DNA of 64,000 bases. Origin: Spartobacteria bacterium LR76 (GTDB lineage: Bacteria; Verrucomicrobiota; Verrucomicrobiia; Chthoniobacterales; Terrimicrobiaceae). The position numbers and the translations under genes were made by a program. A model generated the notes under the pieces. That model ran no database searches. It saw only the letters and a program-made list of their open reading frames with translations, and was not told where the DNA came from. Shown piece by piece: positions 6,961-63,700 of this stretch (positions within the stretch are counted from its first letter, which is position 1; every line of letters starts with the position of its first letter). Where the stretch lies: NCBI GenBank assembly GCA_003054655.1, contig QAYZ01000016.1, positions 434,001 through 498,000 of the forward strand, given 5' to 3'.

Positions 6961-8346
6961 ATGTCCCAACTGGAATCCCTCCGAGAAGCGGCCCGCGTGT
7001 CGCCCGACAACATCCCTTTGCAGATGCTGTTTGGAGAGGCTTGTCTTAACGAGTTCGCCGCCGACGAAGCCCTGGGAGCATTCCAGCATGTTCTCCGTCT
7101 GAATCCCTCCCATCCCGAGGCGCGCATCGGACTTGCCCGGGCCTTGCATCACACGGGCAGGACTTCCGAAGCAGTCGTGAGACTGGAGGCCCTCGTGGCC
7201 GAGCGTCCGGAGTTGTCGGCAGCATGGTTGCACCTGAGCCGGTTCCTCATGGCGGAAGGCCTGAGAGACCAGGCGAGGACGTGCTATGAGAAGAGTCTCG
7301 TCCTGCCTGGAGGCTTGCCGGATGCTGCGCTCGAGCAGGAGCTTTATCTCCGGGGAGGGGCGGAAAAGCCGTCCGCTGACAGCAGTCGACTGGGCCGTGT
7401 CACCAGCGAAGGGTGGGAGACGCCGGTTGATTCCGGTGATTCCGGATTTCCAAGCGGTTCGCCTGGCGATGGTTTTGATGCCGTCGAACAACCCGACCTG
7501 AGCTTTGAAGACATCGGCGGCATGGAGCCGGTCAAGGAAGAGATCCGGATGAAGATCATTTATCCGTTGAAGAATCCCGACCTGTTTCGCGCCTACGGCA
7601 AAAAGGCGGGAGGCGGTGTGCTGCTCTACGGGCCTCCTGGTTGCGGCAAGACGCTCATCAGCCGGGCCACGGCGGGCGAAATCGAGGCGAATTTTCTCTC
7701 CATCGGCATCCACCAGATCCTCGAACTCTACATCGGGGAAAGTGAGAAAAACCTGCATAAGCTCTTCGAGTTGGCGCGGGATAATGCGCCCGCCATCCTC
7801 TTTTTTGACGAGGTGGACGCTCTGGCTGCGGATCGCCGCGACCTGCGCAAAAGCGCGGGACGGACATTGATCAATCAGTTCCTCGCTGAGATGGATGGCA
7901 ATGTCGCCTCCAATGATGGCCTGCTCATCCTCGGTGCCACGAATGCTCCGTGGCATATCGACCCGGCATTTCGGCGGCCGGGGCGCTTTGATCGCATTCT
8001 CTTTGTGCCGCCGCCGGATGAGGGTGCGCGGGAGGCGATCATTTCGATCCTCGCCAAGGGGAAGCCCGTTTCGCAGCTCGACGCACGTGCCCTCGCGCAA
8101 AAGACCAGGGATTTCTCCGGCGCAGACCTGAAGGCGATTTTTGACACGGCGGTCGAGCGCAGCCTCGCCCAGGCGATGAAGCAGGGGCAGGTGGTGCCGA
8201 TCACGCAGCGCGATCTCATAGAGGTCGCAAAATCCATCAGGCCCTCCACTCAGGCGTGGTTTGAGAGTGCAAAGAACTACGCGCTCTACTCAAATCAAGG
8301 CGGCTTTTACAACGACGTGCTAGCCTTTCTGGGGATCAAGAAATGA
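6961..8346 (+). CDS. TPR-AAA+ ATPase (Cdc48/FtsH-like single AAA module)
   Basis: A 461-residue cytoplasmic protein with two parts. Residues 1-130 are TPR-like helical pairs (PDNIPLQMLFGEACLNE, FQHVLRLNPSHPEARIGLARAL), followed by a linker rich in serine, glycine and aspartate (about 135-175). Residues 180-440 form one AAA+ module: SFEDIGGMEPVKEEI, Walker A GPPGCGKT (224-231), pore-loop aromatic YIG (257-259), Walker B ILFFDEVD (279-286) and arginine fingers in RRPGRFDR (338-345). Conserved pore and finger residues suggest a hexameric substrate-threading or remodelling ATPase. No protease domain is fused, so it is not FtsH. The TPR part presumably selects substrates. It overlaps the next TPR gene by ATGA. 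Function unknown. Confidence 0.88.
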   Translation: MSQLESLREAARVSPDNIPLQMLFGEACLNEFAADEALGAFQHVLRLNPSHPEARIGLARALHHTGRTSEAVVRLEALVAERPELSAAWLHLSRFLMAEGLRDQARTCYEKSLVLPGGLPDAALEQELYLRGGAEKPSADSSRLGRVTSEGWETPVDSGDSGFPSGSPGDGFDAVEQPDLSFEDIGGMEPVKEEIRMKIIYPLKNPDLFRAYGKKAGGGVLLYGPPGCGKTLISRATAGEIEANFLSIGIHQILELYIGESEKNLHKLFELARDNAPAILFFDEVDALAADRRDLRKSAGRTLINQFLAEMDGNVASNDGLLILGATNAPWHIDPAFRRPGRFDRILFVPPPDEGAREAIISILAKGKPVSQLDARALAQKTRDFSGADLKAIFDTAVERSLAQAMKQGQVVPITQRDLIEVAKSIRPSTQAWFESAKNYALYSNQGGFYNDVLAFLGIKK

Positions 8347-9599
8347 CGCCCGACTCCTCCGCCGCCCAACGCGGTTTGATTTTCATCCAGCAGGGCCGCT
8401 ATCGCGATGCCGAGAAGTATCTGCGCGAGGCATTGTCCTCCGATCCGAACAACCCGGCGACATTGTATTACCTCGCTCTGTGCGAGCTGAATCAAGGCAG
8501 GCCGGGAGAGGCTCGGGAGACGATTGAACGAGCTCTGGCCATGGGGCCGGAGGTGGATGGATTCCACGCCTTGCGGGCTTTGTGCCTCCTGCAGATGGGC
8601 AAGCTTGATGAGGCGATGGCATCGGCGAATGAAGCAGTGCGCCTCGGGCCGGACTCCGACTTTGCCTTTGTTGCCATGGCCTCGATTCATCTTGCGAAAA
8701 AGCGGTGGTTCGAGGCGGAAACGGCGGCACGCAAAGCCCTAGATCTCAATCCCGAGAACTCCAACGCATCCAATATCCTCACGACGGCTCTGCGCATGCA
8801 GAACCGCCTTGAAGAAAGCGCCGACCGCGTCGCGTATTCGCTCCAGCAGGACCCGGAGAATCCCGATAACCACGTTTCCGCGGGCTGGACGGCCCTGCAT
8901 CAAGGCAAGGTCAAGAAGGCGGAGGAGCATTTCCTGGAGGCGCTGCGTCTGGAGCCGGGCAACGACCAGGCCAAGGACGGGTTGAAGGAAGCATTCAAGT
9001 CCCGATCCATTATTTACCGGGGGTACCTGCAGTACTGCTTCTTCATGCAGAGGCTCACCACCGCGAACCAATGGCTGATCATCATCGGGCTGCTGGTTGG
9101 CGTGAGACTGGCGCGAGCCTACCTGCCTCTGGCGATTGCGACATTTGTCATCGGTTTGTATTTCCTGCTGGTGCTCTGGGTCCATGTGGCCCGGCCTGTG
9201 GGAAACCTGCAACTCATGCTCGACCGGTTTGCCCGTCATGCCCTGAGCCGCGGCGAGCGCTGGGAGGCCTGTCTGGCCGGAGGAGCGGTGGTGATCGGTG
9301 CTCCCTTGTTTTTTATCGGTTCCATCGGCGGATTTCTGAATCCCCTGATCATTGGCTCGGCCTTGACCTCGGCGGCGTTTCCCCTGGCCTACATCTTCAC
9401 GAATCGATCCCGGGCCGGGCAGGCGGTGTTTGGCCTTGCCGCCATCGGGGCGCTGGTTTGCGGCGGGCTGGCTTACCTGTCGTTTTCTTTCGGACAACCA
9501 CCCAGCCAGCAGGGACCTGAGTACCTGCTCGCCTCGGCCATTATTGCGATGGCGGTGACGTGGCTCTGCAATATTCCGGCCCTCAATCGCCGGTGGTAG
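8343..9599 (+). CDS. TPR protein with C-terminal membrane domain
   Basis: A 418-residue protein. The first about 220 residues are TPR repeats, e.g. GLIFIQQGRYRDAEKYLREA, NPATLYYLALCELNQGRPGE and AGWTALHQGKVKKAEEHFLE. The remainder holds about five hydrophobic segments, including LIIIGLLVGVRLARAYLPL, AVVIGAPLFFIGSIGGF and ASAIIAMAVTWLCNIPAL. It lacks a signal peptide, so the TPR part most likely faces the cytoplasm. The start codon overlaps the stop of the TPR-AAA gene (ATGA, 8343-8346), indicating coupled translation and probably a joint role, for example as the membrane receptor of the ATPase. That role is inference. Confidence 0.8.
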   Translation: MTPDSSAAQRGLIFIQQGRYRDAEKYLREALSSDPNNPATLYYLALCELNQGRPGEARETIERALAMGPEVDGFHALRALCLLQMGKLDEAMASANEAVRLGPDSDFAFVAMASIHLAKKRWFEAETAARKALDLNPENSNASNILTTALRMQNRLEESADRVAYSLQQDPENPDNHVSAGWTALHQGKVKKAEEHFLEALRLEPGNDQAKDGLKEAFKSRSIIYRGYLQYCFFMQRLTTANQWLIIIGLLVGVRLARAYLPLAIATFVIGLYFLLVLWVHVARPVGNLQLMLDRFARHALSRGERWEACLAGGAVVIGAPLFFIGSIGGFLNPLIIGSALTSAAFPLAYIFTNRSRAGQAVFGLAAIGALVCGGLAYLSFSFGQPPSQQGPEYLLASAIIAMAVTWLCNIPALNRRW

Positions 9600-9669
9600 G
9601 GGGAAGGAAGGGAACCTTCCTCCTTGCACCCTGTGAATAACCGGATATACTTGACCTCCCCAGCTGCCT

Positions 9670-11832
9670 ATGCTCCGCGCAGGACAATTTGCCCTCATTG
9701 TTACTGCATCGTTCGCGATGCTCGCATCCGCGCTTGCCCAAGACGCGTCGGATCTCTTTTTGCGTGGATACCAGGAGGTCACGGTCGCCAACAGGCTGGA
9801 GAGTGAGGACAAACCGGCCGAGGCGCTGGAGAGGTATCGCACCGCGGCGAAACTTTTCGAAAAAATCGTCAACGACTCTCCGGACTGGCAGCCGATCGTT
9901 ATCGAGTACCGCCTCAAGAAAACCCGAGAGAGCATCAGCCGCCTGGAGACTCAGGTAGGCTCGGCACCCTTGACTACCGACGGCATAGAGGGCCCTTTGC
10001 CATCCGCTGATCGCTCCCTGCCGGAAATTTCCACCCAGCCGCTCACGGTTGTCACGCCTCCGGTCAGCCCGGCTCCCCGGCAGCAGTCTACGGTGAGGAA
10101 CTCGGATTCAAGCCAGTACGACAACAGCGGCTCCGGCAATTCCGTGATGGCCGAATTGCGCAAACTTCGCCGCCAGTTGGCGCAGGTGCAGGAGGAAAAA
10201 GACACCCTCACGGAGCGTCTTCAGAAGAAAGGAGCGGAACTCCAGAGCGCGATGGTCGAGATCGACCGGATCAAGGTGACTGTCGTCGATCTGAAGTCGC
10301 AGCTTGCCCAGGCCACCGGTGCACTGGAGGACGCCACGCGCGACCAGTCCTCCGATGGTGCCGCCAAGAAAAACTACGAAGCTCGCATCGCCCAATACGC
10401 CCAGAAGCTGAGCGAACTGCAGGCTGATAACGAAGTGCTTGCCGAGGAAAACAGCCGCCTGCTCGGGAAGCTCGACCTTGCCTCGAAGTACATTATCACG
10501 AGCGATACGATCCGGGAGGGACTCCTGAAGGAACGTGTCACCCTGGCCGATGCCCGTGATACAGCGCAGGCAAAGCTCAAAAAGATCAAAGACAACGCAG
10601 CCGAACTCGACAAGGTCGCCAGCGAAAACAAGGCGCTGAAGGCTCGAATCGCCGAGCTTGATGGCGGGGCCGCAGGCAAAAAAGCGCTGGAAAAGATCAA
10701 GGTCGAAAAGGCCGAACTCGAAACGAAGCTGGCGGAGTCCGAAAAAAAACTTCAGGAACTCTCGGGAGCGGGAGCGGAGCGCGACAAGACGGTGCTGGCC
10801 CTGCAGAGCGAACTCAACAGCGTCAACGACAAGCTGCTTGAGGCCCAGACCCAGTTGACCAAGAATCAGGATCAGGTTGCCGACCTTCAGAAGCAGCTCG
10901 ATGAGACATCCGGCGACCTGGCCAAGCTGCGCATCAATGGCTCGCCGGGCCGGGAGCAGCAGACGCTCCTGGCAGAGAATGACATCCTGCGCGGGATCAT
11001 CCTTCGTCAGATCAAGGAGCAGACGGCTCGCGATGAAGCCAAGAAGAAGCTCGAGCAGGAAATCGCCACTTTGCAGCTCCAGTCCGGCACCATCACGGAA
11101 CAACTAAGCGTCCTGGGTGCGCCGATCCTGCAGCTTTCTCCCGAAGAGAAATCGGTCTTCAAGGAGCCAGTGGCACTCCTTTCCGAACCGGGCGCACAGG
11201 CCCTGGATGTGACTCTCGCAATTTCAAAGGATGACAATCGCAATGTGGCGGTCACGTCCCAGGGTCCGGAATCTCTGCCGGATACGGCCCGCGAACTCGT
11301 GAAGACGGCCAAGCAGTTCTTCGATGCGAAGAACTACCTCGAAGCCGAAAAGGTCTACCAGCAGATTGTCGACGAAACGCCGGATAACTATTTTGCCCTT
11401 TCCAACCTGGGCGCGGTGCAGATCGAGGCCGGCAAGCTTTCCGCCGCCGAGGTGGCGCTGAAAAAAGCCATCGAGATCAATCCGGGTGACGCTTTTGCTT
11501 ATACCAATCTCGGCATCGCTTACAGCCGCCAGGGCAAGTTTGATGACGCCATCGCCAATTTGAAAAAGGCGCTAAGCATTAACGACTCGGATGCCGTGGC
11601 GCATAATTACATCGGCGTCTGCCTCGGGCAGAAGGACAATCCTGCCGAAGCCGAGAAAGAGTTGCGCCGTGCGATCGAGCTCAAGCCGGAGTATCCCGAC
11701 GCTCATTTCAATCTGGCAGTGCTTTACGCCACGCTTCAGCCGCCCTCGCTGGATCTGGCCAAGATGCATTATAACAAGGCCACCTCCCTCGGCGCTCCTC
11801 CCGATTCCTCTCTCGAGCGCTTGATTCAGTAA
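9670..11832 (+). CDS. Secreted coiled-coil protein with C-terminal TPR repeats
   Basis: A 720-residue exported protein. A signal peptide of about 24 residues (ALIVTASFAMLASALAQ) precedes a TPR-like helical segment (about 30-95), a proline/serine-rich linker (about 100-150), and a long coiled coil (about 155-470) with heptad-rich stretches such as KLRRQLAQVQEEKDTLTERL. The end (about 545-715) is a set of canonical TPRs (AEKVYQQIVDETPDNYFALS, NLGIAYSRQGKFDDAIANLK). It probably acts in the periplasm as a scaffold. It lies 70 bases after the membrane TPR gene, so it may continue the same transcription unit. Function unknown. Confidence 0.82.
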   Translation: MLRAGQFALIVTASFAMLASALAQDASDLFLRGYQEVTVANRLESEDKPAEALERYRTAAKLFEKIVNDSPDWQPIVIEYRLKKTRESISRLETQVGSAPLTTDGIEGPLPSADRSLPEISTQPLTVVTPPVSPAPRQQSTVRNSDSSQYDNSGSGNSVMAELRKLRRQLAQVQEEKDTLTERLQKKGAELQSAMVEIDRIKVTVVDLKSQLAQATGALEDATRDQSSDGAAKKNYEARIAQYAQKLSELQADNEVLAEENSRLLGKLDLASKYIITSDTIREGLLKERVTLADARDTAQAKLKKIKDNAAELDKVASENKALKARIAELDGGAAGKKALEKIKVEKAELETKLAESEKKLQELSGAGAERDKTVLALQSELNSVNDKLLEAQTQLTKNQDQVADLQKQLDETSGDLAKLRINGSPGREQQTLLAENDILRGIILRQIKEQTARDEAKKKLEQEIATLQLQSGTITEQLSVLGAPILQLSPEEKSVFKEPVALLSEPGAQALDVTLAISKDDNRNVAVTSQGPESLPDTARELVKTAKQFFDAKNYLEAEKVYQQIVDETPDNYFALSNLGAVQIEAGKLSAAEVALKKAIEINPGDAFAYTNLGIAYSRQGKFDDAIANLKKALSINDSDAVAHNYIGVCLGQKDNPAEAEKELRRAIELKPEYPDAHFNLAVLYATLQPPSLDLAKMHYNKATSLGAPPDSSLERLIQ

Positions 11833-43573: not shown

Positions 43574-45592
43574 TTAGGCCAGACGAAGGTCGCAGGTGAG
43601 ATCGCCCCTGCGGCCGCCCCGGCAGGGCTTGCCGCCCAGAGCGGTGAGGCCCGGCTTGTCGAGAGGTGTGAAATCAATCTCGTCCACGCCCATGACAAAC
43701 TCCGCCACGGCGCGACCGTTTTTGCGGTTCACGATGGTGACCGCCAGCGGGAGCTGGGTGGGGATGCCGGGGTGGAGCGAGGGGTAGAGGTTTGTGCGCC
43801 GATAGCGCAGCCCGGCCAGCGAGGTTTCGTTAGGCTGGGCGGCGAGCGGCAGCGGACGGCCAGCGACGTAAATGTCGTATTGACTGCTAAAGCCGGGCGA
43901 GGTGAGGAATTCCAGCCGCTGCATCGAGGTATCGACGAAGCGGCTTGTGCTGCCGCCCTCCACCGGGGTTTCGCTCAGGAGCGGCCAGCTTTCCAGCGCC
44001 TTGCGCACGGTGAGGCTGGCGCGCCCGGATTTCCATTCGAGCAGGACGGGAAATCTCCAGTCCCAGATGGCCCGATAAGTTTCGCGATCAAGTTTGTACC
44101 CGGTCTTTTCCAAATCGGCGAAGATCTCCTCCAGGTCGTCCCAGAGGCGGCGGGGCAGGAAATACTCGTCGTGGAGCTTGGTGCTGAATCGCTTGAGTGA
44201 GCGCTTCGGCGGATTCTCCAGCAGGTGGGAGGCGAGGCAGGACCAGAGCAGGGCGACCGCGGAGGACCATTCCGACTTTGGCAGGGCCTCGATGGCGCGG
44301 AACTCGATGAGGCCGAGCATGCCGGAGGGGAAGGCTGTGTTCCAGAACTTGTCCAGGCTGATCTCGCTGCGGTGCGAGTTGCCGGTCACGTCGATCTGGA
44401 TGTGGCGCAGCGTTTCATTGATGAGGCTGCGGTGATCTCCCTCCGACAGCGACTCGATGAAGGTGTACGCCATGTCGATGTCGTAGAGGTCGCGGGCGGA
44501 TTCATCGGGGCGCGGGGCCTGGGATGATGCGCCGACGTAGCAGCCGGTGAAAAGGTACGCGAGCGAGGGATGGTGCTGCCAGTAGCGGAGCACGTTCGCG
44601 AGCCAGAGGGGCCTGGTGAAAAACGGATGCTCGTCCAGGCTCGGGCCGCCCCAGAGGAGGTGATTGCCGCCGCCGCTCCCCTGCGGATGCTCCCAGGGGC
44701 TTTCCTTCCACGTCCGCATGCCGGCCCGATGTCCGGAGGCAAAGAGTTCCTCCATCCACTCGGCATAGGCCTGCCAGGATTCGCAGGGCGGCAGATTGAT
44801 CTCCAGCACGCCGGGGTCGGCGGCGAGGCCGAGGACGGACCACTTGCCCTCTTCGTCCTGCGGCGTGTAGCCGTGGAATTCCAGATTGGCGACACCGCGC
44901 GATTTTGCCGCGCGCTCGGTGGCACCGAGCAAATGCAAAAAGGCGTTTTGCAGGAGCGGCGGAACGAAGATCGTGATCGTGCCGCCCTGGCGGTCGATGC
45001 ACAGGACACGGCGAGGGAGGCCTTCCGGCATGAGGTGCAGCGGGAGACGCAGTCCGGCTGGACCTTCGGCGGTGGAGAGCTTGCGGTCGCCCTTGGGCAG
45101 AGGCCAGCGGGCGGAGCGCCAGATGGAGCCGTCGTGATCGAGCGGCATGACGAGCACCTCGATCCCGCTGCCATTCGGGTCGGTGAATCCGATCCAATGC
45201 GAGGGCACGCCGAGTTCCCTGGCCAGGGTGTCGGCGAAATCCTGGAGGCTGGACGGCGTGAGGGCCTTGCCGCGTTTGGGCAGGGTAAAGACGGGAGAGC
45301 CATCGCGATTGGAGATGAGCCGCACGACCCAGCGCGGGTTGGTCTCACCGGGATACAGTTTGCCGGGGCAGTAGAACCTCGCGGCTCCGGCGCACCGCTC
45401 CTTCATCAGCTCGTCGGCGAATCGCTTCGCATAGCTGAGCTTCGTGGGGCCTACGGCGGAGTAGCTCCACTCGGGGCCCTGCGGGTCGTTGGGAATGAAA
45501 GTCGGCTCACCGCCAATGGTGAATCGGATTCCATGATCGGCCAGCGTCTTTTCGGCGCGGGCCGCAGCTTCGTTCATCCAGGGGGAGATCAT
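43574..45592 (-). CDS. DUF2126 family protein
   Basis: A 672-residue protein that matches the C-terminal half of the large transglutaminase-DUF2126 proteins known from proteobacteria. It begins with LADHGIRFTIGGEPTFIPND, then YCPGKLYPGETNPRWVVRLI, DGSIWRSARWPLPKGDRKLS, CIDRQGGTITIFVPPLLQNA, EGKWSVLGLAADPGVLEINL and GGGNHLLWGGPSLDEHPFF. Motifs such as GNHLLWGG and RHIQIDVTGNSHRSEI recall glutamine-synthetase/COOH-amine ligase-like folds, so an amide-bond-forming role has been suggested for the family. Here it is a separate gene overlapping the transglutaminase upstream by 4 bases (45589-45592). Last gene of a four-gene operon. Confidence 0.85.
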   Translation of the reverse strand: MISPWMNEAAARAEKTLADHGIRFTIGGEPTFIPNDPQGPEWSYSAVGPTKLSYAKRFADELMKERCAGAARFYCPGKLYPGETNPRWVVRLISNRDGSPVFTLPKRGKALTPSSLQDFADTLARELGVPSHWIGFTDPNGSGIEVLVMPLDHDGSIWRSARWPLPKGDRKLSTAEGPAGLRLPLHLMPEGLPRRVLCIDRQGGTITIFVPPLLQNAFLHLLGATERAAKSRGVANLEFHGYTPQDEEGKWSVLGLAADPGVLEINLPPCESWQAYAEWMEELFASGHRAGMRTWKESPWEHPQGSGGGNHLLWGGPSLDEHPFFTRPLWLANVLRYWQHHPSLAYLFTGCYVGASSQAPRPDESARDLYDIDMAYTFIESLSEGDHRSLINETLRHIQIDVTGNSHRSEISLDKFWNTAFPSGMLGLIEFRAIEALPKSEWSSAVALLWSCLASHLLENPPKRSLKRFSTKLHDEYFLPRRLWDDLEEIFADLEKTGYKLDRETYRAIWDWRFPVLLEWKSGRASLTVRKALESWPLLSETPVEGGSTSRFVDTSMQRLEFLTSPGFSSQYDIYVAGRPLPLAAQPNETSLAGLRYRRTNLYPSLHPGIPTQLPLAVTIVNRKNGRAVAEFVMGVDEIDFTPLDKPGLTALGGKPCRGGRRGDLTCDLRLA

Positions 45593-46443
45593 TTGCGGCG
45601 GATGCTGAGGTTGGTGGTCAAAGTGCTATTGATGGTCTTCTTGCCGTAATAATGGCCGTGTACGGGGGCGATATGAGCAGGAGTGAGGCCAACCGCGGTG
45701 GCGATGAAGTGGTGGCCGCAAAAAATTCCGTTCGTCGGGTCGATGCCGACCCATCCCGCGCCCGGCAGGTAGGTTTCCACCCAGGCGTGGAGGGCGTTTT
45801 CGGCGCGGCGGTCTTCCTCGGGGAGTTCCTCCTCCCAACTGAAGCCGCTGACGAGCCTCGCCGCGAGACCATGGTGGCGCAGCACCTCGACGGCGAGCAC
45901 GGCGTAGTCGCGGCAGGAGCCTTTCATCAGGGCGAGGGTCTGCTCCGGCGGGTAGGCCTCGCCTTCATCGCGGCGCTCGTACTCGATATTTTCGTGCAGC
46001 CAGGAGTTCAGGCCGACGAGCCAGTCCACGGTAGGGATTTCCTTCGGTGGGCGATCCAAAGCCGCCGGGATGGGGCCGAGCGGCTGGCGGGGCGTAATGT
46101 AGGCGGAAAGAACGGATGCCTCCTCGGGCGAGTAGGTAAAGGGAACGTTGAGCGCGTGGGAAGCGAGCAGGAAGTGGAAGGGGTTCTTTTCCTCCAGCCG
46201 GAGGTCGAGTTCCAGCTTGTAGGTCAGATGATCCAGTTCCTTCGGGTAAAAACAGTAGGCGACGAGGTTGTCAAAAATGTCCTGCCGATACTGGACATCG
46301 GTTCCCTCGTTGGTCGTGATCTTTGAGCGGTCCGTCCTTACCGCAAAGCCATTCCTCGGCAGCAGCCTGACCAGGTGAGGAGAGAAACTGGCCGTGTCTT
46401 CATACTGATACGTCGCCTCATAGCGTATCTCGATCTCGATCAT
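45589..46443 (-). CDS. Transglutaminase-like cysteine protease, copy 1
   Basis: A 284-residue protein. An N-terminal beta domain (YEATYQYEDTASFSPHLVRLLPRN) precedes the transglutaminase core with catalytic cysteine in MKGSCRDYAVLAVEVLR, histidine in NALHAWVETYLPG and aspartate in WVGIDPTNGIF. Bacterial members are usually peptidases or amidases rather than cross-linkers. It corresponds to the N-terminal half of the fused proteobacterial protein, split here from the DUF2126 part by an overlapping stop and start. No signal peptide is seen, so it is cytoplasmic. It overlaps the second transglutaminase gene (46440-46443). Confidence 0.88.
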   Translation of the reverse strand: MIEIEIRYEATYQYEDTASFSPHLVRLLPRNGFAVRTDRSKITTNEGTDVQYRQDIFDNLVAYCFYPKELDHLTYKLELDLRLEEKNPFHFLLASHALNVPFTYSPEEASVLSAYITPRQPLGPIPAALDRPPKEIPTVDWLVGLNSWLHENIEYERRDEGEAYPPEQTLALMKGSCRDYAVLAVEVLRHHGLAARLVSGFSWEEELPEEDRRAENALHAWVETYLPGAGWVGIDPTNGIFCGHHFIATAVGLTPAHIAPVHGHYYGKKTINSTLTTNLSIRRK

Positions 46444-47321
46444 TTTTCACTGAGCCTCCTCATGGTGACTTTTACCTTCATTTGTTGTGACCCTGACGCC
46501 TTGAAGGTGCCCCGCACCGGGGCGGCGTCCTCAAAATCTCTTCCATACGCCATCGTGACATGGCGAACTCCGCACCATTGGTTGTTGGTGGGATCGAGCG
46601 CGATCCACTTCATGCCGGGCGTCATCGCTTCCACCCATGCGTGGGTGGCGACGGAGCCAACCAGCGCAGTCGATCCGTCGCCGTTCTTCGGCGGATCGGA
46701 CTCAATATAGCCGCAGACATACCGGGCGGGTATGCCGGCGGTGCGCAGCACGCTAAGCATGATGTGGGAAAAGTCCTGACAGACACCGGCTTTTTGCTTC
46801 CAGACCGTATGGAGCGGGGTCGAGTTGTCCGTGCTGCCGGAGCGGTAGTCGAACTTCTCGTAGATGGCCTTGTTCAGGTCCTCCAGGCCATCGCCAAGGG
46901 GCAGGTCGGCGGGAAAGAACCTCGTGGCCCATTCCATCGCGGGGCCGCCCGTCGGCACCGCTGCGGTTGGCTGGAGGTAGTCAAAAAGGTCGGTGAGCTT
47001 GGAGGTGAAGATCTGGCGGGCTTCCGCCACGCTCACGCCGAGAGCCGCCTCCGAATGCGCCACCTCTGAGGTGCGGATGGTGGAGCGATGAACGATCGAC
47101 AGACGCTCGTGACGAAGTGTCATCGAGTAAAACGTCACATGATTCCCGAAATAGTCGACGTAACCCGAGACCTTCGCGTCCGGAAGGAACTGGATGGAAT
47201 GATCGACGACCTCCTGCCCGGGCAGGGAGGGCGGGGTCAGCCGGGCTTCGATATACGCCTCGCTCGCGGTGCGACCATAGCGATAGTCCGTGCGATGGAT
47301 GATCTCAAACAGCATGGCCAA
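46440..47321 (-). CDS. Transglutaminase-like cysteine protease, copy 2
   Basis: A 293-residue paralogue of the following gene product. The N-terminal domain starts FEIIHRTDYRYGRTASEAYI. The catalytic cysteine is in KAGVCQDFSHIMLSVLR, histidine in ATHAWVEAMTPG, and aspartate in WIALDPTNNQW. The two copies share the family core but differ around the active site (VCQDFSH against SCRDYAV), which suggests different substrates. The gene overlaps the ATP-grasp/alpha-E gene upstream by 17 bases and the next gene by 4. Confidence 0.9.
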   Translation of the reverse strand: MAMLFEIIHRTDYRYGRTASEAYIEARLTPPSLPGQEVVDHSIQFLPDAKVSGYVDYFGNHVTFYSMTLRHERLSIVHRSTIRTSEVAHSEAALGVSVAEARQIFTSKLTDLFDYLQPTAAVPTGGPAMEWATRFFPADLPLGDGLEDLNKAIYEKFDYRSGSTDNSTPLHTVWKQKAGVCQDFSHIMLSVLRTAGIPARYVCGYIESDPPKNGDGSTALVGSVATHAWVEAMTPGMKWIALDPTNNQWCGVRHVTMAYGRDFEDAAPVRGTFKASGSQQMKVKVTMRRLSEK

Positions 47322-49839
47322 AAAGGGTGGGCTGCGACGCGGGGTTCATCTGGATCTGATGATTGAGAAAGCCGTCCGAGATCAACTGGTGAAGGTCGAG
47401 CGTCTTGTCCAGAAACTCCGCCTGCTTGTCGAGGAGGACGTTTTTGGCGCTGAGGTCGTTTTCCGCCTCGCGGGCCAGCGCCTCCCAGTCTGTCTGCCGG
47501 ATGTGCTGTATGAGCTGCTCCATCGCGATGATGGTGCGATTCGTCGCCGGGGAGACCTCATCACGCAGGCGGGCCACGCACGCCTCCAGGCATCGGGTCA
47601 CCGACCGCGGCGCGACAGGGTTGTTCCAGAGCAGCTCCAGCACGGGGGCGGCCTCGATGCGCATCTGAAAGACGCGTCGGTAAATATCGCGGCTGTTCAG
47701 GAGGCGGAGAAAGGCGGAAAGACGGATCTCCGTCTCATGGTCGGCGGCCGCCTTCGTGCTGCGCCGGACGATCGGGCGCAAGATTGAGCGAATGGCGTTG
47801 CCGGTGATGATGGCGCGCTCCAGGTATTGGCCGATCTCGCAGAAGGCCCAGCCGCCGTCCGCCAGCATGGTGGCCTGGGCGGTGCCGAAAAACTCCGGCG
47901 TAGAGCGGGTGACGAGTTCGCAGCACTTGCGGGTGCTCGTCGCCAGATCCTCGTCAGTCTGCCGGGGCCGGTAGCGGATGCGTTGAAAACGGGTGCGCAG
48001 GGCGCTGATCACGCCCCAGGCCTCAATGCTGACGCACTCGAGGACCGACTCCGCATTGCTGACGGCGCGGAGGACGGCGCGGACGACGGAATCCGGCTCG
48101 TCGAGGTCGAGGGTGAGTCGATACCGTCCCGCCGGGCTGGAGATGTTGCGCCGGGAGACGGTTCCCGGGTTTTCCAGGGGCGGCAGGAGGCGGTTCCAGA
48201 CCGGGCGGTAAAGGGTGCGTTCGGTGGAGTTGAGTTCCTCCAGCTCCAGCGACTCGATCACGCCGATCATGACGGCGAGGCTGTTGGCGCGCTCCAGGTA
48301 GCGGCCCACCCAGTAAAACGACTCCGCCACGCGGCTGGTGACGCTTTGCGGCGGCATGGTCGTCTCGCGGATCGGTGCGCGATTTTCTGGAGGCTCGATG
48401 AAATCGGGGTGGGAAAGCACCCAGGTGTCCTTGCTGCCGCCGCCGAGCTCGTTGGCGGTGTAGGGCGTATCCTCCGTGCTCACGCGGGTGAGCGCGCCGG
48501 GGAAGACGTCGTACCCGCCATCCGGCTTGCGCAGGGCAAAGAGGATGTGGTCCTGGCGGCGATCCACCTTGCGGCCGTCGTGGTAGGTCACCGTGAGAGC
48601 GTCGCAATCCTGCGGCTGAGCGACGTAGGCGCCGGGATTTTGCAGGATGGCCTTGCGGATCGCCTCGGTGTCCGCTCGGGAGGGCGCGAGCCCATTGCCG
48701 CCGTAGTAGATCTTTTCACCGCTCAGGCCGCGAATGGTATAGTCCTCAATCTCGGAAAGGACGTGCTCCCTCTGGTCGATATCACCCATCCAGAAGGTCG
48801 AGAGCCCGCGCAGGATGGGGTTTTCGTTGAGATAGTAGCGGATGATCGCCGGGGCGAGGGGGAGCAGGGCGCGATCGTCGGCCAGTTGGGAACCAATGCC
48901 ATTGACTACCGCGACGCTGCCCTGGCGGATACACTGCACGAGTCCCGGTACGCCGAGGAGCGAATCGCGCCGGAACGCCATGGGATCGAGCCACTGGTCC
49001 GAGATGCGGCTGTAGATGACCTCGACCTTTTCCAGGCCCGAGACCGTCTTGATATACACGGCGTCGTCGAGGACGAGCAGATCGCTGCCTTGCACGACCG
49101 GAATGCCCATGCGCCGGGCAAGGAAGCAGTGCTCAGAGTACACCGCGCTGCCGGGGCCGGAGGAGAGCAGGACGACCGTCGGCTCCGGATCGGCGGAAAA
49201 CGAGCGTAGCATCTCCAGCATGTCGACCGGGGAATCCGCGATCGGGCGCACGTTGAAATCCTGGAACGTCTGCGGGATCACTCGGGCGAGGGCACGCCTG
49301 TTCTGGATCATGTACGAGATGCCGGAGGCGTTGCTGAAATAGTGGTGCTTGATGCCAAACTCCCCATTCGGCAGGCGGCAGACGGCCGCGCCCGAGATAT
49401 GCAGGTAGGCATCGCCCGGCGGTTTTAACCCGCAGGCCGCACGCTGGTAGAAAATACTCCCCAGCACAGGCTGGACAGGAAGCAGTCCGCCGCGAAGGAT
49501 TTCCTTTTTCCCGTAAATATCCTGAAGAAACAGCTCAAAAGCCTTCAGCCGCTGGCGAAAACCCTCCTCCAGCGGCACCCATTCCTCGGGGCGGAAAATC
49601 TGGGGCAGGAGGTCGCAAAACCACGGGCGGCGTCCCCACGGGCGCTCGCGGGAAATGTCAAAGGTCGCGCCCATCTCGCGCATGGTCGCCTCCAGGCGTT
49701 CGTCGAGCACCCGGATCTCGCCGCGAGTGTGCTCATCCATCTTTTGAAAGAGAGGACGATACACCTCACGCAGTTGCCCCGAGTCTCCCTGGATCTCGTG
49801 CCAATGCGTGAAAGGATTCTTTGCACCAACACTTTGCAC
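47305..49839 (-). CDS. Fused circularly permuted ATP-grasp and alpha-E protein
   Basis: An 844-residue fusion. Residues about 1-480 are a circularly permuted type 2 ATP-grasp domain: RPWFCDLLPQIFRPEEW, FELFLQDIYGKKEILRGGLL, LLSSGPGSAVYSEHCFLARR and GIPVVQGSDLLVLDD. Residues about 505-815 are the helical alpha-E domain (TSRVAESFYWVGRYLERANS, WAFCEIGQYLERAIITGNAI). In most genomes these are separate neighbouring genes. The ATP-grasp part probably ligates amino acids or peptides; the alpha-E helper domain, with its conserved glutamates and arginines, has no proven role. First gene of the operon with two transglutaminases and DUF2126. It has a GTG start; rplM diverges 111 bases away. Confidence 0.9.
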   Translation of the reverse strand: MQSVGAKNPFTHWHEIQGDSGQLREVYRPLFQKMDEHTRGEIRVLDERLEATMREMGATFDISRERPWGRRPWFCDLLPQIFRPEEWVPLEEGFRQRLKAFELFLQDIYGKKEILRGGLLPVQPVLGSIFYQRAACGLKPPGDAYLHISGAAVCRLPNGEFGIKHHYFSNASGISYMIQNRRALARVIPQTFQDFNVRPIADSPVDMLEMLRSFSADPEPTVVLLSSGPGSAVYSEHCFLARRMGIPVVQGSDLLVLDDAVYIKTVSGLEKVEVIYSRISDQWLDPMAFRRDSLLGVPGLVQCIRQGSVAVVNGIGSQLADDRALLPLAPAIIRYYLNENPILRGLSTFWMGDIDQREHVLSEIEDYTIRGLSGEKIYYGGNGLAPSRADTEAIRKAILQNPGAYVAQPQDCDALTVTYHDGRKVDRRQDHILFALRKPDGGYDVFPGALTRVSTEDTPYTANELGGGSKDTWVLSHPDFIEPPENRAPIRETTMPPQSVTSRVAESFYWVGRYLERANSLAVMIGVIESLELEELNSTERTLYRPVWNRLLPPLENPGTVSRRNISSPAGRYRLTLDLDEPDSVVRAVLRAVSNAESVLECVSIEAWGVISALRTRFQRIRYRPRQTDEDLATSTRKCCELVTRSTPEFFGTAQATMLADGGWAFCEIGQYLERAIITGNAIRSILRPIVRRSTKAAADHETEIRLSAFLRLLNSRDIYRRVFQMRIEAAPVLELLWNNPVAPRSVTRCLEACVARLRDEVSPATNRTIIAMEQLIQHIRQTDWEALAREAENDLSAKNVLLDKQAEFLDKTLDLHQLISDGFLNHQIQMNPASQPTLFGHAV

Positions 49840-49899
49840 GGCGGTGAAGGCTTGGCCTTACGGAATTTCCGGTCAAGGAAATATGAAGATTCTTTGCAT

Positions 49900-49928
49900 T
49901 TGACAGAAGAGGCAACCTTGGGCATGCT
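49900..49928 (+). promoter_or_regulatory. Candidate promoter of rplM-rpsI
   Basis: A perfect TTGACA (49900-49905) is followed after 17 bases by CATGCT (49923-49928), which keeps the two most conserved -10 positions (A second, T last). The rplM start is 22 bases beyond the -10. A short leader of about 15 bases would result. Confidence 0.45.
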
Positions 49929-49950
49929 CCCCGATTCTCTTAAGTACCAA

Positions 49951-60740: not shown

Positions 60741-63700
60741 TGAGCGGACTCCTTGGATGGCTCGGGCTGCGGAGCGTTCAGGTAATCTCGGGACAGGCGT
60801 TCAAAGTAATCGGCTACGGCATCGCGATAAGCCTCGGGAGCCTTGGCGGGGTCTTGGGATTCGAGCTTATGCTGGCGCTGAGCCTGCTGGAGTTGGGTCC
60901 GCAGCAGGGTGATAATCTCATCCAGCGAACCTTCGATTTTGTCGAACGCTGCTACCACCTGGGCGAACGGCCCGGCATAGGTGTGCGGGTCTTCCCAGAA
61001 GAGCTTATGGACTTCCTTTACAGTGGGATCGAGCGGCAGGATCAGTTCGGCTTCGATCATTTCCTCTCGGAGGTCTTCGAGGACCTCCTTCGCAAGGCGA
61101 TCCTGATTCTGGGTCGCCGCCCCTCCATGGCTGGAAAGGCTCAGCCCATGGCCGCCACCGGAGCTACTGCCTGAAGCTGACGCTGTCGGGGAACCATTGC
61201 TATTTCCCGTTGTCGACGAGCTTGTTTCCGAGGTGGCTGCTTGTTGATTACTGGTGGCCATCATTTCGGCAGACGAACCCTGGCCTTGCTTGTCACCCTG
61301 GCCTTGCTTGTCACCCTGGCCTTGCTTGTCACCCTGGCCTTGCTTGTCACCCTGACCTTGCTTGTCGCCCTGGCCTTGCTTGTCACCCTGGCCTTGCTTG
61401 TCGCCCTGGCCTTGCTTGTCACCCTGGCCTTGCTTGTCACCCTGGCCTTGCTTGTCACCCTGGCCTTGCTTGTCGCCCTGGCCTTGCTTGTCGCCCTGAC
61501 CTTGCTTGTCGCCCTGACCTTGCTTGTCGCCCTGACCTTGCTTGTCGCCCTGGCCCTGCTTGTCGCCCTGGCCCTGCTTGTCACCCTGGCCCTGCTTGTC
61601 ACCCTGACCTTGTTCAGCGTTTCCGACCTTGGAGCCTTCGAGGCACCGGCCTTCGCGTCCCGATGCGGTGTCGTTGGCGCGTTGCGAAGAGGCGAGGCGA
61701 CGCATGTTGGCTGCACTTCGCTCAATGCGCTCGATGAGCTTTGCGATGTCCTCGGACGAAGGGCGCGGTGTTCCGGGAGCGTTGGATAGACGATTGGCGA
61801 CGTTGGCCAGTTGCTCACTTACTTTGCTGGCTTGAGCTTGATCCCGAGGCTGGTCGTACAGCTTCTTCATTTCCTCGCGGAGCTTTCCGTCGTTGAGCGC
61901 GGCCGCCGCTGCAGCAAGGCGCTTCGCAGCTTCGGAAGATCCGGAGTCCTGTTGCTTTTGCGCTTCTTCAGCGAGTTTCTGGCGCGACTGCTCAACCTGC
62001 TCGGCGGCCTTCTTTGCCGCATCCCGGGCGGCATCATCGGAGCTTGCCTGAGGTGCGTTTTTGGCATCGTTGCTTGCCTGGTTCAGCGCCTTCAGGGTGC
62101 TGGCCATGGCGTCTTTCTCGGCCTTCTCTCCGGCTCGGAACATTGCTTCGACGGCAAGCCGCAATTCATGCGCGGCATTCGCCGCAGGGCCTCGGGCCAT
62201 GGGGACATCCTCGGCATCGAGTTGTCTTAGGGAGGACTTCGTTTCCTCATGAGCTTTGGCGAGGCGCTCCATGATCTCAGGTTCAAACGGAGCGAGAGTC
62301 TGGTTTAATAACGCTGCGATGTGCTGGCTGACCTGGGCTTGGCGTTCGACGAACGATCCATCGAAGCGATTTGGGTTGGCTGGCTTGCCATCAGGCATCG
62401 GAGTCGGAGCCGGGGAGTTGCGGCCAGGATCGGAGGCGGCGTCCTTTGTTTGATCGAGATCGGAGGACAGCCGCTGCTGCTCCTTGGCGAGAAGCTCCAG
62501 CTCGCCCGCCTGGGTTTCATAGCGTTGCTTGAGCTCGACCTCCTGCTGTTTTTGGAAGGGATCATTGACGTTCTTGTCCTTGCCAAAGGTCTTGCCATCG
62601 CGGGCGATGGTCTTGATCGCAAATTTCTCGATCTCGGTGATATGACTGAGCGCCTTTCCCTGGAGTTTTGACGCCGGTTCGTTCTGCGTCTCGCCGATCT
62701 TCGAGGAGGCCTGCTGCATGAGCGGCTGGGTCTGGTTCAAGAGATCAACGATTTTAGCGGCTTTGCCCTCCACGATGAACTTCTTGATGACTTCGCCGAC
62801 CTTGCCGGCTAGCTGGGCCTGCTCGCCGGAGACGCGCTGGTTTTCCTTGGTCCAGACAGGATTGGTCCGGGCGAGCTCCGCATTGGCGAGGAAGAAGTTT
62901 TCCTTGAGCAGCCTGAGCTGGGCGACCTTGATCGCCCTGATGAGAGGGAATATTGACTCACCCGTGCCACCCGGCAGCTCCTTGACGTCATCCCGGAATG
63001 GTTTCACCTGAACGAACTGCACGGGGGAAACCGTCGCCGGGAGAGGCATGGGAGCGATCCGTTGCGCCTTGAGGTAATACGATACCATGTCGAAAGGCTC
63101 CACCACGATCTGATCCAGGAAGAGGGACGTGAGCAGCTTCGTGCGGCCCGGCTTTTCCAGTGCCTCGACTGGTACGGGTACGCTGAGACGGGACTCGCCA
63201 TTGACGGAAATCTCGAGAGATAGGTCCTTCAGTCCGCTGGTGGAATCCGCCGTGGCCTCGAGCGGCACTTCCTCAATCGGCGTGGCCTTGGTTTCCGATT
63301 TGGGCGATTTCCAGGTGATCGAGGCTTTGGGTGCGGCGGGTGCGGGAGTGGGTGTCGCGGCAGCGGTCTTGGGCGGCACGGGGATGGTCCATGGCTGAGC
63401 CCAGATGATCAGCGTAACGAAATGCGCGATGATCAGGCCTGCGACGAGGGTAGCCAGAGCAGCCAGCGCACGTCGCGGTGAACGTCGCGGGACGTGCTTC
63501 AGGAAAACCGCAGTTTCCTCACGTTGCGCTCTGGCGATCGGATCGTCCACGCCGCGCAAGGCGGTCACGGTCTCAAGGCGGTTTTTTGCCGAAAGCGTGT
63601 CGTCGAGCTGCCGGGCGGTCTTTAAAAGCGATCGACGACGGAAAAGCCAAAGGGCGATACAGACGATGAAAAGACCAGCGAGAGCCGCACCCCAGTAGAA

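Follow-up and report, generated by a model that had tools for sequence, protein, structure and literature searches.

Four overlapping genes of Spartobacteria bacterium LR76 (Chthoniobacterales, Verrucomicrobiota), encoding a fused ATP-grasp/Alpha-E protein, two transglutaminase-like (TG) proteins and a DUF2126 protein, are consistent in their domains and motifs with the DUF2126 branch of a predicted amide-ligase/peptidase system, and it seems that they extend a stand-alone ATP-grasp/Alpha-E (and TG) set of wider distribution. We put at roughly even the chances that the operon is a build-and-trim cassette, probably cytoplasmic, for a small peptide-like amide. The system was already known as a prediction; the new elements are the predicted fold of DUF2126, a rule of co-occurrence among three gene modules, a candidate cross-phylum transfer of DUF2126 and nitrogen limitation as the possible condition of use.

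Iyer et al. reportedly predicted, in Mol Biosyst in 2009, a system of circularly permuted (CP) ATP-grasp, glutamine synthetase (GS)-like ligase, Alpha-E and peptidase, and the abstract is said to describe the GS-like ligase as circularly permuted. Like that system, the LR76 operon unites a CP ATP-grasp, Alpha-E, TG-like enzymes with an intact Cys-His-Asp triad and a ligase whose predicted model has a GS-like fold (DUF2126). Unlike it, there is no NTN-hydrolase (Anbu), ATP-grasp and Alpha-E are fused, there are two TG genes, DUF2126 is separate and short and, in contrast to the reported permutation, the GS motifs stand in their usual order in the DUF2126 model. An earlier note on this DNA had assigned the genes to a group predicted to make and process amide bonds, and the domains, intact motifs and predicted DUF2126 fold bear this out. 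Literature searches pairing DUF2126 with transglutaminase, or "alpha-E domain" with ATP-grasp, returned no match, and a search on DUF2126, COG4196, COG2307 and COG2308 matched through COG2307 or COG2308 only.

Layout of the Operon

The window, meaning the whole stretch of 64,000 nt that was analysed (contig QAYZ01000016.1, positions 434,001-498,000), holds four consecutive minus-strand ORFs, none of them broken by a stop codon. The first encodes an 844-aa fusion of CP_ATPgrasp_2 and Alpha-E, a probable amide ligase (47305-49839); this is followed by TG1 (46440-47321), TG2 (45589-46443), which in many relatives is joined to DUF2126 in one protein, and a 672-aa DUF2126 protein of the short form, a predicted amide ligase of the GS/GCS superfamily (43574-45592). 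The listed overlaps are 17, 4 and 4 bases. All four genes do overlap, and the two 4-base values stand, but the first overlap is probably 11 bases, since the 17-base figure depends on a TTG start of TG1, whereas its homologues align to an ATG six bases downstream (47315), and a relative that is 65-70% identical (L073) has an 11-base overlap at the same junction. A presumed divergent promoter region (49840-49950) separates the operon from an upstream, divergent plus-strand ORF; judged by eye, this ORF encodes ribosomal protein L13 and a convergent one downstream of the operon a DEAD-box helicase, so that by layout the four genes form a closed operon. As the frames lack stops and homologous cassettes occur in many genomes, the arrangement is not due to chance. 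The nearest relatives are found in the Verrucomicrobiota/Chthoniobacterales, with DUF2126 identities of 95% (L072) and 65% (L073, a Chthoniobacter flavus MAG). In Chthoniobacter flavus Ellin428 (L083) and a relative (L082), the gene immediately upstream of TG1 encodes an M1 aminopeptidase (by Pfam in L083, as a phmmer homologue in L082); in L082 it sits between the ATP-grasp/Alpha-E fusion and TG1, and no adjoining fusion was found in L083. Occurring in 2 of 25 verrucomicrobial loci, this neighbour is not general.

Two Predicted Ligases and Two Papain-Like Enzymes

The Pfam scan places CP_ATPgrasp_2 (PF14403) at residues 79-454 of the first protein (about 48478-49605; E 3e-108) and Alpha-E (PF04168) at residues 501-822 of the same frame (about 47374-48339; E 5e-43). 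The presence of a circularly permuted ATP-grasp domain is further shown by a sequence match to PDB 3n6x (E 1e-85). In a fusion model of moderate confidence (pLDDT 77, pTM 0.58), the ATP-grasp fold matches 3n6x (Z 36.5, 31% identity over 432 residues), glutathione synthetases (Z 21-23) and glutathionylspermidine (GspS)/trypanothione synthetases (Z 18-19). The Alpha-E part has helical-bundle matches only (best Z 9.6, rmsd about 6), a range that is uninformative for helical bundles. The E. coli glutathionylspermidine synthetase/amidase, which pairs a GSP_synth-type ligase with a papain-like amidase domain of the CHAP type, and the eukaryotic glutathione synthetase thus resemble the first protein in their ATP-grasp fold (Z 18-23). 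At the level of protein families the likeness to glutathionylspermidine synthetase/amidase ends with the fold: no GSP_synth-type or CHAP-type family was found in the four proteins (Pfam scan, E 0.01), and the Pfam families are others. Like the E. coli enzyme, the operon sets papain-like enzymes beside a ligase, although its hydrolases are distinct proteins of the transglutaminase-core type and a further ligase, of GS fold, is present. A related ATP-grasp protein is described as releasing phosphate from ATP (PMC6376114).

The fourth protein matches the DUF2126 family (E 2e-137), the sole family listed for it in the Pfam scan, which thus gives no match to the PafA/Dop sequence family; it has no NCBIfam family. 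The DUF2126 profile matched nothing meaningful among PDB sequences, and the structure was therefore predicted (AlphaFold, 36 sequences), giving a model with mean pLDDT 88 and pTM 0.89. The top Foldseek matches are YbdK structures (best 1r8g, E 1e-4), whose low TM-scores (0.2-0.4) reflect a match to no more than a portion of the larger model, and VIA-align superposes the model on glutamine synthetases with Z about 16 over 268 residues (rmsd 3.9). The motifs E29-P-T, G307GG.H311 and E430.R432 are invariant in 37/37 DUF2126 sequences and are arranged along the chain as EPE, GSGMH and EVR are in E. coli GlnA; motifs of this type are catalytic in GS. DUF2126 is therefore predicted to have the glutamine-synthetase/GCS (YbdK) fold, in common with YbdK/gamma-glutamylcysteine ligase, glutamine synthetase and PafA/Dop, whereas it differs from all of these in lacking significant sequence similarity to them and in having extra parts outside the matched domain. 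In hhalign against E. coli proteins, local alignments to YbdK (E 0.36) and GlnA (E 0.042) were not significant (probability about 1% or less), and global alignment to either gave nothing useful. The predicted fold lends independent support to a second ligase in the operon. In locus L056 (G085, 8095-10441), DUF2126 is split into two frames of 485 and 263 aa, possibly by a frameshift.

Both TG1 and TG2 contain Transglut_core and Bact_transglu_N (PF01841/PF08379), and, as the earlier note had observed, their active-site contexts differ (GVCQDF in TG1, GSCRDY in TG2). The C/H/D triad (C181/H227/D243 in TG1) is invariant in 26/26 aligned sequences, so that, together with the DUF2126 motifs, the catalytic residues, whose loss had been raised as grounds for doubt, are kept. 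TG1 and TG2 are probably papain-like Cys-His-Asp enzymes that hydrolyse or transfer amide bonds; the two cleavage steps previously suggested stay conditional, since TG domains could also transfer acyl groups. The folds and invariant motifs thus point to two papain-like enzymes and a pair of ligases with unrelated folds, all with their catalytic motifs retained.

Fusion States Across Genomes

The ATP-grasp/Alpha-E fusion and the separation of TG from DUF2126 had both been thought distinctive of this operon; comparison across phyla showed instead that such states are ordinary and fluid. In a phylum sample of 240 genomes, 59 have Alpha-E and 43 have DUF2126, and by hand count 41 of these 43 have Alpha-E in a frame of at least 800 aa, the exceptions being G050 (a 671-aa frame) and G086 (no long frame). 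DUF2126 occurs in a full-length form in 27 of the 43 (profile 1-826; frames of 1115-1447 aa) and in a short form in 17, with one genome (G078) having both. The 13 of 27 long-form loci that were fetched and scanned (L058 to L070) have a TG domain in every DUF2126 frame, and none of the 17 short-form loci scanned has one there. Of 16 other short-form loci, 6 (L050-L055) share the four-gene order in which TG2 and DUF2126 are separate, as do 11 of 25 verrucomicrobial loci; TG2 is fused to a short DUF2126 in 4 of the 25 (L084, L085, L088, L113) and also in L166 and L167, and the two forms alternate even inside Chthoniobacterales. All 55 picocyanobacterial loci have a short DUF2126 apart from TG, and there ATP-grasp (39 loci) and Alpha-E (40 loci) likewise form individual genes. 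The statement that TG and DUF2126 are fused in proteobacteria holds for Caballeronia and Enterobacter plasmids but not universally, as an 842-aa DUF2126 protein of an Acidithiobacillus plasmid has no TG domain; in annotated Granulicella, Caballeronia and Enterobacter plasmids the TG-DUF2126 fusion adjoins an ATP-grasp gene of 2412-2583 bp. Being fluid among relatives, the fusion state by itself points to no special function, and the operon layout is ordinary rather than distinctive. One 90.7-kb IncFII plasmid from a clinical Enterobacter isolate (L155) carries both ATP-grasp types, Alpha-E, TG-DUF2126 and TG, with an arsenate reductase gene adjoining.

A Second ATP-Grasp/Alpha-E Pair Accompanies DUF2126

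The LR76 genome encodes one DUF2126, two CP-ATP-grasp genes, two Alpha-E and four Bact_transglu_N proteins. Its second ATP-grasp/Alpha-E pair, absent from the earlier note, consists of stand-alone genes (506 and 329 aa) on another contig (locus L039, 7744-11748; contig C1 of genome G000, about 289.2-293.2 kb), directly followed by an IS481-like transposase. The pair lacks an adjoining transglutaminase gene here, unlike in several relatives, and two genomes of the same genus also have this two-gene pair (L164, L165).

Stand-alone-type Alpha-E is present in 43/43 DUF2126 genomes of the phylum sample, against 54/240 genomes overall. In an order sample of 147 genomes, 62 have DUF2126 above the cut-off (a sub-threshold fragment in G246, which is without Alpha-E, was dropped), and 60 of the 62 have the stand-alone type, against 106/147 overall; the two without it are 78% and 84% complete. 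Alpha-E classes were set by hand from scores and frame lengths, with a contig-end fragment (G368) counted as present, and the hypergeometric values for co-occurrence (1e-37 for the phylum, 1e-9 for the order) ignore kinship and are not proof.

We propose three modules: A, the stand-alone pair, often with a TG; B, the fusion and TG1; and C, TG2 and DUF2126. Three loci of genus g154 (L159-L161) have only TG2 and DUF2126, with stand-alone Alpha-E on another contig, and several genomes (e.g., G125) have both ATP-grasp/Alpha-E types without DUF2126. These gene contents, together with the co-occurrence of DUF2126 and the stand-alone pair, lead us to propose that module C depends on module A. The pieces lie side by side in L062, L064, L066, L162, L163 and the Caballeronia and Enterobacter plasmids.

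DUF2126 in Picocyanobacteria

In a DUF2126 tree of 59 rows, the picocyanobacterial rows (n = 10, support 100/100) nest within the Chthoniobacterales clade, forming with the window's group a set of 17 rows (100/99). The ATP-grasp proteins of L087, L092, L104 and L148 score 534-567 bits against module A of the LR76 genome vs. 247-261 against the fusion. Because DUF2126 nests in this way and the ATP-grasp is closer to module A, the sequences fit a transfer of DUF2126 alone, across phyla, into a resident picocyanobacterial core set. Contamination is unlikely, as the cyanobacteria include isolates and one complete genome (L148). A glycogen phosphorylase match occurs in 22 of the 55 picocyanobacterial loci, and in L092, L104 and L148 the gene lies between the ATP-grasp/Alpha-E/TG trio and DUF2126; we regard this neighbour as local synteny.

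A Possible Link to Nitrogen Limitation

The cassette is possibly tied to nitrogen limitation, on evidence that concerns the homologous stand-alone set rather than this operon. Among the 55 picocyanobacterial loci, 31 have urease alpha and 16 have nitrite/sulphite-reductase-like genes, and neither was found in any of the 25 verrucomicrobial loci; the picocyanobacterial neighbourhood is one inherited synteny and not 55 independent cases. The Anbu operon (Pseudomonas putida PP_2688 to PP_2685; Yersinia bercovieri) shares with ours the ATP-grasp, Alpha-E and transglutaminase families, and it differs in having separate ATP-grasp and Alpha-E, one TG, Anbu itself and no DUF2126 (PMC5666114; PMC6376114; PMC8050072). 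In the P. putida study, growth on nitrate, a poor nitrogen source, raises PP_2688 (CP ATP-grasp type 2) by log2 3.99 and PP_2685 (proteasome beta subunit) by log2 4.44 over ammonium; of the two promoters, that of PP_2688 alone responds to nitrogen depletion (PMC8050072). The abundance of these domains in marine metagenomes is also stated to correlate with that of urea metabolism domains (PMC3597751). No nitrogen genes were found near the operon in the window (by eye) or near the stand-alone locus. Regulatory sites were sought with the recognised NtcA-like and sigma-54 consensus patterns. The NtcA-like GTA-N8-TAC lies upstream of 3/38 cyanobacterial ATP-grasp genes vs. 0.32 expected, too few for a general claim, and the sigma-54 pattern is at chance level in the window (33 vs. 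28 expected), with no such site near the operon. An Anbu-type explanation was rejected for LR76: its genome (96% complete; control rings in 10/14) has no match to PF00227, the proteasome-fold NTN hydrolase, and among the phylum sample's 43 genomes with DUF2126 just 3 show such a match.

A wider proposal, possible but on balance doubtful, joins these observations. TG2-DUF2126 would be an add-on that works only with the stand-alone pair and, with the fusion and TG1, would make up one dispersed pathway of six to seven genes, switched on in nitrogen limitation and both building and recycling a peptide-like amide (a tag, store or signal). DUF2126 of the Chthoniobacterales type would then have passed to freshwater picocyanobacteria and been plugged into their core set.

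Proposed Reactions and Alternatives

For the build-and-trim cassette, we infer the reactions and their order, location, substrate and role from the genes, domains, motifs, predicted folds and co-occurrence described above. DUF2126, with its GS/GCS fold, would use ATP to activate a carboxylate, which would then be joined to an amine, and the circularly permuted ATP-grasp domain would form a second amide bond, assisted by its Alpha-E domain. TG1 and TG2 would hydrolyse or transfer specific amide bonds through Cys-His-Asp, for which reason we propose that the product is trimmed or recycled. The logic of the scheme resembles that of GshA with GshB/GspS and the Gsp amidase.

It is also conceivable, though unlikely, that the product is a modified protein, tagged by the ligases with a peptide or amino acid that the TG-like enzymes take off again. 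PafA and Dop, the enzymes of pupylation, share the GS fold, and one fold match of DUF2126, albeit remote, is Dop (7oxv, Foldseek E 2.5e-3). Tagging has also been proposed in the literature for the related Anbu-type operon. However, the 1.5-kb flanks of 16 operons, in which stop-to-stop frames of at least 22 aa were compared all vs. all, hold neither a tag protein nor a conserved small ORF; what recurs are larger genes common to relatives and two marginal 22-23-residue matches between relatives. This agrees with the earlier note, which had found no substrate peptide nearby. The lack of a proteasome-family protease in LR76 and in all but three DUF2126 genomes of the phylum sample likewise argues against tagging.

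That the cassette belongs to specialised metabolism, making a bioactive oligopeptide or pseudopeptide as a natural product, seems to us quite improbable. An antinematode metagenomic clone is tabulated with ATP-grasp, alpha-E, transglutaminase and protease genes (PMC7764037), and Cp1B, structurally related to the ATP-grasp fold (9cjn, Z 21), makes the E-64 pseudodipeptide (PMC12568646). Yet the genes next to the cassette include no conserved transporter, tailoring enzyme or resistance gene, and the set is widespread in the order sample, at 62/147 genomes above the cut-off.

If the TG-like proteins were true acyl transferases (cross-linkers or amine incorporators) and not hydrolases, the pathway would only build. 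Their fold family and invariant C/H/D are compatible with either activity, and the two PDB relatives point in opposite directions, 6g49 being a protein-glutamine gamma-glutamyltransferase and 3isr being annotated as a putative cysteine protease. GspS/amidase, however, sets a precedent for a ligase that works with a papain-like amidase, and we consider pure acyl transfer very unlikely. A degenerate or neutral operon kept by chance is hardly credible: the window's DUF2126 does lack about 20 residues near its C terminus that all 14 other rows of the alignment (A1) possess, but the catalytic motifs are intact, and gene overlaps and order are conserved in relatives at 47-70% identity.

The domains are spread over several bacterial phyla, and a build-and-trim cassette, if real, would reveal a general route to amides alongside those to glutathione or polyamine conjugates. 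With the predicted DUF2126 fold, the near-constant second pair, and homologous sets that adjoin or are co-regulated with nitrogen-scavenging genes, the search narrows to nitrogen limitation and one gene combination. Elsewhere in the window, an 18-bp tandem repeat (61277-61612; 18.7 copies, 95% matches) lies within a 1086-aa minus-strand ORF.
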